Source: Roseateles sp. (GTDB taxonomy: Bacteria; Pseudomonadota; Gammaproteobacteria; Burkholderiales; Burkholderiaceae_C). From it: DNA of 64,000 bases. Shown in pieces: positions 22,050 through 59,464 of the stretch (its first letter is position 1; each line of letters starts with the position of its first letter). Location: assembly GCF_019237615.1 (NCBI RefSeq), contig NZ_JAFAGT010000033.1, positions 1 through 64,000 on the forward strand, read 5' to 3'. Made by a program: the position numbers and the translations under genes. The notes under the pieces were generated by a model that saw nothing but the letters and a program-made list of their open reading frames with translations, was not told the origin of the DNA and ran no database searches.

Positions 22050-23714
22050 TCAGGGTGTCGCGGGGCGCAGAAAGCCATTCAGCGGCCGCCCCGGCAAGCG
22101 CTTGAGCCCTTCGACGACCTGGCTGGCGTTGAAGACGGCGCCAGCGTCGTTGGTGTGCGTGCGGGCGTCGGAGAAGAAGCCGTCGACGCGCTCGGCGCCC
22201 GCAGCGCGGTAGGCCTGCGTCACGAGCAGGGTCAGGTCGACGAACTGCGCGCCGCGTTCGCGCGCGACCTGCTCGCCCCAGGCGGCGTAGTTCTCGAAGT
22301 CGCGCGGCTGCTCGGGCTGCCAGCGGTCCTTGTGCGGGATGGGCGACAGTACGACGACATGGACGCCCCTGGCTCTGGCGTCGTCGATGTAGCGCGCGAG
22401 ATACCAGCCGAAGCTCTGCACCTTCTCCTTGCTGCCGTCGGGCCGGGTGTCCTCCTGCGTCTCGGGGCCGATGCCGGGGACGGAGCCGCGGTTCTTGCCG
22501 GCCGGGTCGCCGATGCGTGCACCGTCGTTGTGGCCGAACTGGATCAGCAGCGTGTCGCCGGCCTTCAACTGCTCCAGCACCGAGGCCCAGCGGCCTTCGG
22601 TGAAGAAGGTGCGGCTGCTACGGCCGCCGATGGCGTTGTTGACGACGTTGATGCGCTGCGTGTCGAAGAAGGTGGCCAGTCGCTCGCCCCAGCCGTAGGC
22701 GCCGTTCTGGCCGCCACTGCGCACCGTGGAGTCGCCAATCAGCACGAGGCTGGGCAGCCTGGGGTCGCGCGGCGCCTCGACCTTGACCTTGCGGGCATCG
22801 ACGACGGGCTGCTCGTCACTACCGTCGGGCGCGAAGCGGCGGGTGTAGAAGGCGTCCGGCAGCACCTTGTTCTGGATCAGTCCGGCGATGACGAGTTGGG
22901 CGTTCAGCGTCGCGCCGGCCAGGTTGGTGTGCACGGTCTCCTCGGGTGTCGCGGCGGGGAAGAGCTTCTCCACCGCGGCCCTGCCCAGCGCCTCGTAGCG
23001 CAGCGCGCCCCATTCGTTCAGGTCGATGAAGGCCACGTTCTCCTGCCTGGCCACCTCGGCGGCCCAGGCTGCGAAGTTGCCGCCGGCGCGCGTGACCTTC
23101 TGGCCGTCGGCCTCCCAGCGCTTGCGGATCACCGGCGAGCAGACCACCGGCGTGGCGCCGGCCGCGCGGATCTCGGCGATGTAGCCGCGCAGATAGGCGC
23201 CGTAGGTGGCGACGGTCTCGCGCTTGCCCGTCAGCAGGTTGTCGATGTCCTCGGTCTCGGGCCCCGCGCCGCGCAGCACGCCGCGGGCGCGGCTGTTGTC
23301 GTTGACGGGGCTGGCGTCGTTATGGCCGAACTGCATCAGCACCCAGTCACCCTTCCTGATGAGCGCCTTGCTGCGCTCCCAGTGGCCGCTGCTGCGGTAG
23401 GTGCGGCTGGACAGCCCGCCCACGGCGCGGTTGACGAGGTTGACCTGATTCGGGTCGAAAAAGCCGGCGATGGGATGGCCCCAGCCCCACTGCCCCTCGG
23501 CACCCTTGCCCTGGCCGTCGTCGTGGCCGTTGCGCACCGTCGAGTCGCCGATGAGGAGGATGGACGGCAGCTCGGGCCGGGCCGGATCGGGCAGCGTGAC
23601 CTGGGCGCGGGCGGGATCGGTGCTGGCGGTGAAGGCCTGCGCATGGACTGCGGCCGGCAGGGCCAGCAGCGAGAGCAGGGTCGCGGCGCAGCGGCGGGTG
23701 AGGGCGGGGGTCAT
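22050..23714 (-). CDS. Tandem two-domain SGNH/CE12-like rhamnogalacturonan acetylesterase
   Basis: Two GDSTVR-containing repeats (LPSILLIGDSTVRNG, LPSLVLIGDSTVRSG), each with QFGHND; signal peptide. Confidence 0.82.
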   Translation of the reverse strand: MTPALTRRCAATLLSLLALPAAVHAQAFTASTDPARAQVTLPDPARPELPSILLIGDSTVRNGHDDGQGKGAEGQWGWGHPIAGFFDPNQVNLVNRAVGGLSSRTYRSSGHWERSKALIRKGDWVLMQFGHNDASPVNDNSRARGVLRGAGPETEDIDNLLTGKRETVATYGAYLRGYIAEIRAAGATPVVCSPVIRKRWEADGQKVTRAGGNFAAWAAEVARQENVAFIDLNEWGALRYEALGRAAVEKLFPAATPEETVHTNLAGATLNAQLVIAGLIQNKVLPDAFYTRRFAPDGSDEQPVVDARKVKVEAPRDPRLPSLVLIGDSTVRSGGQNGAYGWGERLATFFDTQRINVVNNAIGGRSSRTFFTEGRWASVLEQLKAGDTLLIQFGHNDGARIGDPAGKNRGSVPGIGPETQEDTRPDGSKEKVQSFGWYLARYIDDARARGVHVVVLSPIPHKDRWQPEQPRDFENYAAWGEQVARERGAQFVDLTLLVTQAYRAAGAERVDGFFSDARTHTNDAGAVFNASQVVEGLKRLPGRPLNGFLRPATP

Positions 23715-23849
23715 GGCGCGGATGCTAGGAGCAGCCCGGCCCGTGCGGCGGGCCGGGATGGCGCAAGTTCTTGAGCGATTGGCGCCCAGCAACATCGCGC
23801 AACGTAGCCGGTCCTAGAGTCGCGGCCACCTTTCTTACCGGCACCCATC

Positions 23850-58500: not shown

Positions 58501-59464
58501 CGGAGATGACGGTGAAGTGGCGCACGGTACCCGACACGCCGCCCAGCTCCTTCCTGGGCGTCCAGGTCTGGAGGCCGTCGAAGCTGTCGGAGTACCAGTA
58601 GCGCTTGGTCGTGTAGTCATCGAAATAGATGCGCCAGCCCGACTTGCCATCAGCACCCTTTATGGGCACCAGGGCCTGGCCTTCCGACGGACCGCCCCAG
58701 CCGGCCCAGTCGCCGGTCCGCTGCAGGGCCCAGGGGCCGTCCAGCGACGGGGCGGTCGCCAGCTCGATGAACTTGGTCGTCTCGTTCTTCGCGAACGCGA
58801 CGTAGCGGCCTTCGTGCTGGATGACGAAGGTGTCGATGTAGTTGTTCTCCAGCCCCCGCATGGGCACGGGGTCGGCAAACTTCGTGAAGCTCGCGTCCAG
58901 CGCCTTCACCGAATAGGCGGCGAACGGCCCTTGCGTGCCGGTCCTGGACAGGCTCACGATGAGCTTCAGGCTGCCGTCGGATTCGCGGAACCACTCGGGC
59001 GCCCAGACGTTGCTGACCTTTTCATCGGCGCCCGGTAGCTGCACCGGCACATCGGCCACATGCGTCCAGCTTCTCAGGTCGGCCGACTTGGCGATGCCGA
59101 AGGTGGAGCCCGACCAGTTGGTCGTGTAGGCGATGTAGTAGAGGCCGTCGGCCGCGCGGATGATGGACGGGTCGCGCAGCAGGTCCTTGGGCGGTTGATA
59201 GACCTCGGAGCCCAGCGAGGTGAAGGTGACGCCGTCGGCCGACGAGAACAGGCTCAGCTTGTTCTGCGAGGTGGCCATGAAGGCCGACATCAGAAAGGTC
59301 TTCGCACCCTTGGTGGCGGCCAGCGGCGCCTCGGCCTGCGTGGCGCCGAGGGTGGTGGGCGCCTGGCCCGGCAGGTCCTGCGCACCGGCTGCTGAGCACA
59401 TCAACAGCGCGGCCAACCAGATGGCGGTGCGGTTCGGCAGGGCAGGCGGCAGGACAGCAGGCAT
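55544..59464 (-). CDS. Two-module enzyme: GH43-like propeller plus GH35 beta-galactosidase
   Basis: N-terminal [40 protein letters not shown]...[10 protein letters not shown], then [39 protein letters not shown] and [13 protein letters not shown]; 1306 aa in one frame. Confidence 0.85.
   Translation of the reverse strand: [1306 protein letters not shown]

Follow-up and report, generated by a model that had tools for sequence, protein, structure and literature searches.

Positions 22050-59464 of contig NZ_JAFAGT010000033.1 of Roseateles sp. (assembly GCF_019237615.1) raise the question of which polysaccharide is served by the carbohydrate-active genes that lie there side by side. This region of the analysed stretch (positions 1 to 64,000 of the contig; hereafter the window) had been described in a first-pass annotation as a SusD-less locus for the utilisation of rhamnogalacturonan I (RG-I). 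Its genes were annotated individually here against Pfam and NCBIfam, the reading frames being picked by codon-position GC. About 22 genes fitting RG-I breakdown were identified between tRNA-Met (21920-21996) and ftsY (Table 1): three CE12-like domains, PL11, PL26, a distant PL22 relative, GH28, GH105, two GH2, GH51, GH43, a GH43-GH35 fusion, one TonB receptor, a GPH importer, a rhizobial-type rhamnose pathway and a DeoR regulator. With a probability of roughly 0.86, this gene content points to a CUT-type locus for RG-I utilisation that has been passed down vertically within the Roseateles/Pelomonas genus. The RG-I reading is supported by the co-conservation of lyases, acetylesterases, side-chain hydrolases, TonB receptor, GPH importer, cytosolic GH105 and rhamnose pathway. 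Nearly every gene named in the first-pass annotation was recovered where it had been placed, including PL11, the TonB receptor, GH105/88, GH28, GH51, both GH2, GH35, the GPH symporter and the rhamnose genes; the DeoR regulator, the DUF6250 protein, the beta-lactamase-fold hydrolase and the alpha/beta hydrolase were absent from its list.

Among the backbone-acting enzymes, the PL11 lyase is the only PL11 in the genome, and both its beta-sheet domain (107.5 bits) and its C-terminal domain (792 bits) score above cut-off. The protein previously noted as YetA/exo-RG-lyase-like was identified as PL26, with three PcRGLX domains recognised by Pfam. Two CE12 proteins had been listed, and two were found, but the GDSL domains number three, since the first gene is a tandem, the C-terminal half of which has a rhamnogalacturonan acetylesterase (1deo) as its best match. 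For the PL22-like protein the propeller fold stood and the family assignment did not: PF14583, the PL22 family, was not matched in the Pfam scan, while the only PDB structures that the profile of the protein matches are PL22 (3c5m/3pe7; E 2e-4), and a model of the protein (pLDDT 79) has PL22 3pe7 as the best fold match (E 1.7e-17, TM 0.64/0.75). His408 and His410 of its HPH motif are invariant, and Ala stands where 3c5m has Gln three residues before the motif; we take the HPH motif of PL22 and the neighbouring Gln to be a metal site.

The PL22-like fold, together with the presence of a GH28 within the locus, would suit a general pectin locus in which homogalacturonan is also degraded by these two proteins. 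This is highly improbable, as no PL1 (PF00544) was found in the genome, the GH28 is nearest to rhamnogalacturonidase (its best NCBIfam model, below cut-off, is BT4153 rhamnogalacturonidase) and lacks a signal peptide, and the galacturonate genes are located on another contig with a GH28-like gene of their own, as judged partly by eye. One gene in locus L114, resembling PL1 by eye, had no Pfam match.

Among the side-chain enzymes, the GH43-like lipoprotein is conserved at 82-91% in most relatives. The GH35 reported earlier is present as a domain, but the gene is a GH43-GH35 fusion, which is conserved in the loci of the Roseateles group and, at roughly 60%, in those of Undibacterium; in Massilia the GH43 part is encoded as a separate gene. 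In the GH43 half of the fusion Asp98 and Asp211 of the presumed catalytic triad are invariant, and the activity of this half appears uncertain because glycine replaces the EGP glutamate of the stand-alone Massilia homologues; the fusions carry a conserved Glu three residues after the altered position. A literature search with literal terms found no paper on such fusions, which is a weak negative. The suspected GH115 relic proved to be a true pseudogene, with 74-80% nucleotide identity to genes at the same site in relatives, most of them full-length; the one full-length orthologue scanned is GH115 (PF15979, E 3e-113). Of the two further hydrolases, the alpha/beta hydrolase has partial similarity, far below cut-off, to the pectin acetylesterase PaeX, and the best NCBIfam model for the beta-lactamase-fold protein is an ester hydrolase, also below cut-off.

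So many side-chain enzymes (GH2, GH35, GH43, GH51 and the lost GH115) might instead indicate a locus whose main substrates are arabinogalactan or other rhamnose-capped glycans, the RG-I lyases being minor, and GH115, an alpha-glucuronidase family, with a neighbouring GH43 in relatives suits arabinogalactan. The RG-I backbone is indicated, however, by PL11, PL26, CE12, GH105 and GH28, and by PL4 in a relative, and it is the lyases that form the constant core across relatives, whereas GH115 is dead here, so that this alternative is considered very unlikely.

Table 1. Features of the putative RG-I utilisation locus, with coordinates in the window
Feature	Coordinates	Strand	Evidence
Tandem CE12-like double GDSL acetylesterase, exported	22050..23795	-	Pfam GDSL x2; C-terminal half vs rhamnogalacturonan acetylesterase 1deo E 9e-27
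PL22-like beta-propeller, exported	23850..25202	+	PD40; profile match 3c5m/3pe7; fold match 3pe7
Paired operator-like dyads TCA-N6-TGA, 55 bp apart (25412/25467)	25412..25478	.	Upstream of TonB receptor
TonB-dependent receptor, TonB-Xanth-Caul subfamily	25591..28758	+	TIGR01782 577 bits
PL11 endo-rhamnogalacturonan lyase, exported	28863..30701	+	PF18370, PF21348 (E 3e-238)
GH43-like lipoprotein	30698..31687	+	PF04616 at 28.1 bits, under the cut-off of 32.2
GH115 pseudogene remnant with disrupted frame and missing C-terminal part	31640..32156	+	
Alpha/beta hydrolase, cytosolic, possible acetylesterase	32210..33010	-	PF00326/PF01738
GH2 hydrolase, exported	33007..34849	-	PF02836, PF02837; start approximate
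GH51 alpha-L-arabinofuranosidase, exported	34848..36389	-	PF06964 E 1e-45; start approximate
DUF6250 protein, exported, YesU-like lectin fold	36386..37156	-	PF19763
RhaM L-rhamnose mutarotase	37120..37443	-	PF05336; start approximate
GH28, no signal peptide, rhamnogalacturonidase-like	37467..38852	-	PF00295
RhaI, rhizobial-type L-rhamnose isomerase	38849..40147	-	TIGR02629 727 bits, cut-off 647
Bifunctional rhamnulose-1-phosphate aldolase/dehydrogenase	40169..42313	-	TIGR02632 1046 bits, cut-off 568
Paired operator-like dyads TCA-N6-TGA, 51 bp apart (42411/42462)	42411..42473	.	Between rhaD and deoR
DeoR-family regulator (RhaR-like)	42721..43611	+	PF00455, PF08220
FGGY sugar kinase, likely rhamnulokinase RhaK	43608..44987	+	PF21546, PF00370; start approximate
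Beta-lactamase-fold serine hydrolase, exported, likely esterase	45047..46294	-	PF00144
CE12-like GDSL esterase, exported	46299..47549	-	PF13472
PL26 exo-rhamnogalacturonan lyase-like, Tat-type signal	47551..50289	-	PF19501, PF21345, PF21346
GPH/MFS symporter, likely RG disaccharide importer	50286..51944	-	PF13347 153.8 bits; TIGR00792 below cut-off
GH105/GH88 unsaturated rhamnogalacturonyl hydrolase, cytosolic	51952..53115	-	PF07470 E 6e-95
GH2 beta-galactosidase-like, exported	53139..55547	-	PF02836, PF16355, PF18565
GH43-GH35 fusion, exported	55544..59464	-	PF04616 + PF01301 in one 1306-aa frame

Ten other genomes of the genus (Roseateles/Pelomonas) were compared over 40-kb stretches, the order being judged as far as each stretch reaches. 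The locus is syntenic among them, far more than chance would give: gene order and orientation are kept in all ten, as is tRNA-Met at the left edge, and ftsY lies at the right edge in most of the named Roseateles-group loci that extend so far. A scan for PL26 found Roseateles, Pelomonas and other relatives at 83-86% identity (84-86% for the named Roseateles and Pelomonas) and, at lower identity, Paucibacter, Undibacterium, Massilia, Verrucomicrobiota, Alteromonadaceae and Bacteroidota. Loci L114 and L116 (genomes G008 and G004) also carry, next to a GH2, a PL26 gene that is 51-52% identical and probably a second copy. PL11 scores above cut-off in 14 of 20 genus genomes, the source genome included. 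The GH51, GH2 and DUF6250 genes are each missing from some relatives, and the interval between the GH43 and alpha/beta hydrolase genes (31687-32210 here) is filled in relatives by accessory genes that differ from one to another (GH115 and GH43 among them) and span about 2 to 12 kb; in this genome it has shrunk to the GH115 remnant. Judged from this pattern, the locus combines an inherited core and a slot of variable content. A horizontally acquired island beside tRNA-Met was rejected, given the tRNA-Met and gene order kept in the ten genomes and the absence of a GC shift.

A decaying or silent locus might be suspected from the broken GH115 and from the PL4 gene that relative L002 carries at the junction of the beta-lactamase-fold and RhaK genes and that is absent here. 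Yet the core genes are all open and mostly 75-98% conserved among relatives, and the lost genes are accessory, GH115 being missing or broken in some relatives too; decay is therefore hardly credible beside utilisation of RG-I.

No SusD family was matched among the open reading frames scanned, in agreement with the first-pass annotation, nor was a SusC-SusD pair found, the receptor being of the TIGR01782 type. The lack of SusD is no surprise because it is the normal state in Proteobacteria: SusC and SusD have been suggested to be specific to Bacteroidetes, and the CUT loci of Xanthomonas and aquatic Proteobacteria are a known SusD-free TonB format (PMC1790865). It was consequently rejected as a novelty. 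As far as genes are concerned, the features of CUT loci are present, namely a TonB receptor beside carbohydrate-degrading enzymes, a GPH/MFS transporter and a DeoR regulator. The rhamnose genes likewise conform to the rhizobial type, with RhaI above the TIGR02629 cut-off and the DeoR regulator.

N-terminal export signals, judged by eye, were found in PL11, PL26 (Tat-type), the CE12, GH2, GH51 and GH43 proteins, the fusion, DUF6250, the PL22-like protein and the serine hydrolase, and not in GH105, GH28, the alpha/beta hydrolase and the rhamnose enzymes. This distribution suggests a two-stage digestion, in which oligosaccharides are trimmed outside the inner membrane and disaccharides are imported; from it, and from family membership, we infer localisation and substrates. 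The CE12 enzymes would deacetylate the RG-I backbone outside the cytosol, PL11 (endo) and PL26 (exo) would cleave it by beta-elimination, and GH2, GH51, GH43 and the GH43-GH35 fusion would remove galactan and arabinan side chains. The TonB receptor may carry rhamnogalacturonan oligosaccharides to the periplasm, and the GPH symporter may take in the final disaccharides. In the cytosol, GH105 would split the unsaturated disaccharide, and GH28 probably the saturated one from the non-reducing end left by beta-elimination. Rhamnose would then pass through RhaM, RhaI, RhaK and RhaD-dehydrogenase. For the unsaturated uronate the route would be DhuI, KduD and KdgK, and for galacturonate UxaCBA, both of these routes being encoded elsewhere.

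The uronate half qualifies the first-pass view that the whole pathway is packaged together: backbone, side-chain, uptake and rhamnose genes are indeed in the locus, but dhuI, kduD, kdgK and uxaCAB are on other contigs. KduD is present twice in the genome, one copy having a KdgK-like gene nearby (by eye), and UxaC lies inside what appears by eye to be a uxaCAB-like cluster. Next to this KduD and KdgK-like gene, a frame like a truncated KdgF cupin was also seen by eye (L128:10242-10739). GH105 would yield 4-deoxy-5-hexosulose uronate, and an isomerase is therefore needed, while KduI (PF04962) is found neither in this genome nor in 18 of the 19 others of the genus. One RpiB/LacA-family gene of 213 amino acids was found outside the window (G000:C41:390-1028; L131:390-1031), which matches 3c5y and 4u8e (gbs1892, E 2e-82) and scores above the PRK09273 cut-off; gbs1892/4u8e is presumably DhuI. 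The latter is a known non-homologous replacement of KduI (PMC12838403). Within the genus, a DhuI-type isomerase is encoded by every one of the 14 genomes in which PL11 exceeds its cut-off and by two of the six others (Fisher one-sided 15/4845 = 0.003, calculated by hand and ignoring kinship among the genomes). A pathway broken for want of KduI was rejected once this isomerase was found, although annotation pipelines seeking KduI would call it broken.

The fusion, GH2, GH105, GPH symporter, PL26, CE12 and beta-lactamase-fold hydrolase genes form a minus-strand operon, and the DeoR regulator and FGGY kinase genes are divergent from the RhaD-dehydrogenase side. The gap between rhaD and deoR and that between the PL22-like (PD40) and TonB receptor genes, aligned over nine to ten relatives, each contain a pair of operator-like dyads (Table 1), the only two pairs with a spacing of 50-56 in the window. 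In 200 simulated sequences the mean was 0.005 pairs and never two, a figure against which it must be said that the motif was spotted by inspection before counting, so that it is not a formal probability, conservation being independent evidence. Of nine relatives with a stretch spanning both gaps, eight have these two pairs and no others. A somewhat tighter pattern, run over all 4.8 Mb of the genome, retrieves both pairs and one further match, the sequence of which is almost invariant among relatives and has the look of conserved coding DNA. The strict palindrome TCACGNNCGTGA was rejected as the operator: it occurs three times in the window (0.12 expected) but is not kept in all relatives. The shared pairs suggest that the receptor/PL11 operon and the rha operon belong to one regulon. 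The DeoR regulator is probably the natural candidate to bind both pairs and would thus control the two operons together, and in Rhizobium the rhamnose genes are repressed by a DeoR protein (PMC3870299).

Some points speak against the assignments above. The GH28 and GPH proteins remain below the curated NCBIfam cut-offs, and the GH105, a GH88/105 protein by Pfam, scores above the cut-off of NF051900, named beta-galactosidase BglB. The match of DeoR to the dyads, which we infer, rests on the position of deoR beside one pair, and no pair precedes the operon running from the fusion to the esterase; sites were also not found before ftsY/GH43-GH35 or CE12/PD40 or at the junction of the beta-lactamase-fold and RhaK genes.

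The DUF6250 protein may be a further, lectin-like component. Its model (pLDDT 91) has 1oq1 as the best PDB match (E 7e-11, TM 0.63/0.70), while a profile search of the PDB found no YesU sequence. We take YesU to be encoded in the RG-I gene region of Bacillus subtilis. Entry 1oq1 is B. subtilis YesU, and YesU bound fucosylated glycans (PMC6120924). A DUF6250 gene lies within 10 kb of PL26 in 19 of 80 PL26 loci, from Pseudomonadota, Verrucomicrobiota and Bacteroidota, and the invariant motifs R-x-S-D-x-N-x-F-W and Y-Y-x-G-x-G-x-N-x-N are compatible with a binding or active site. Tentatively, it is possible that DUF6250 corresponds in Gram-negative bacteria to YesU and serves as a dedicated binding protein for RG-I oligosaccharides, or as an unrecognised enzyme, retained in the RG-I loci of these three phyla, as YesU would be in those of Bacillota. 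If so, DUF6250/YesU would be a so far unnamed core part of RG-I use in bacteria. No paper on DUF6250 was found in the literature searched, and as the protein accompanies PL26 in three phyla, a single binding assay could assign its function.

Just upstream of tRNA-Met, at 19818-20519, an AbiEii-like nucleotidyltransferase (PF08843, 68.5 bits) is encoded, possibly the toxin of a type IV toxin-antitoxin or phage-defence pair.

No paper connecting an RG-I locus with Roseateles, Pelomonas or Massilia turned up in the literature search, and RG-I use in Betaproteobacteria seems little described. The locus may offer a compact testable model, with two operons, one predicted type of operator pair, a two-compartment order of digestion and the isomerase swap. 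That the kind of locus is already known, and that the additions are the paired operator-like sites, the DhuI step and the YesU-like protein, is well supported by comparison with other systems. The yes/yte RG-I cluster of B. subtilis also has CE12, PL11, GH105 and YesU, the last with a fold counterpart here, but uses ABC importers in place of a TonB receptor and GPH symporter. Alteromonas macleodii MIT1002, which has PL22, PL26, GH88 and rhamnose genes and grows on rhamnogalacturonan, shares PL22, PL26, GH88/105 and the rhamnose genes in its polysaccharide utilisation locus (PMC6972757), to which the present locus adds the GH43-GH35 fusion, the CE12 tandem and a DeoR-type rha set; the TonB receptor is only about 33% identical in Alteromonas-type loci L045-L049. 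A DeoR regulator, RhaI, RhaK and mutarotase are common to the rhizobial rha locus, and a transporter with an unsaturated galacturonyl hydrolase to rhiTN of Erwinia (PMC3870299), whereas here there is no rhamnose ABC importer, the aldolase-dehydrogenase is bifunctional and the genes are joined to a polysaccharide-degrading locus. The DhuI/KduD route has the same RpiB/LacA-type isomerase in place of KduI; its genes are unlinked in this genome, as is reported for some strains too (PMC12838403). With CUT loci (PMC1790865) the locus shares a TonB receptor beside degradative enzymes, an inner-membrane transporter, a sugar regulator and the lack of SusD, but it is far larger, appears specific to RG-I and includes complete rhamnose catabolism.

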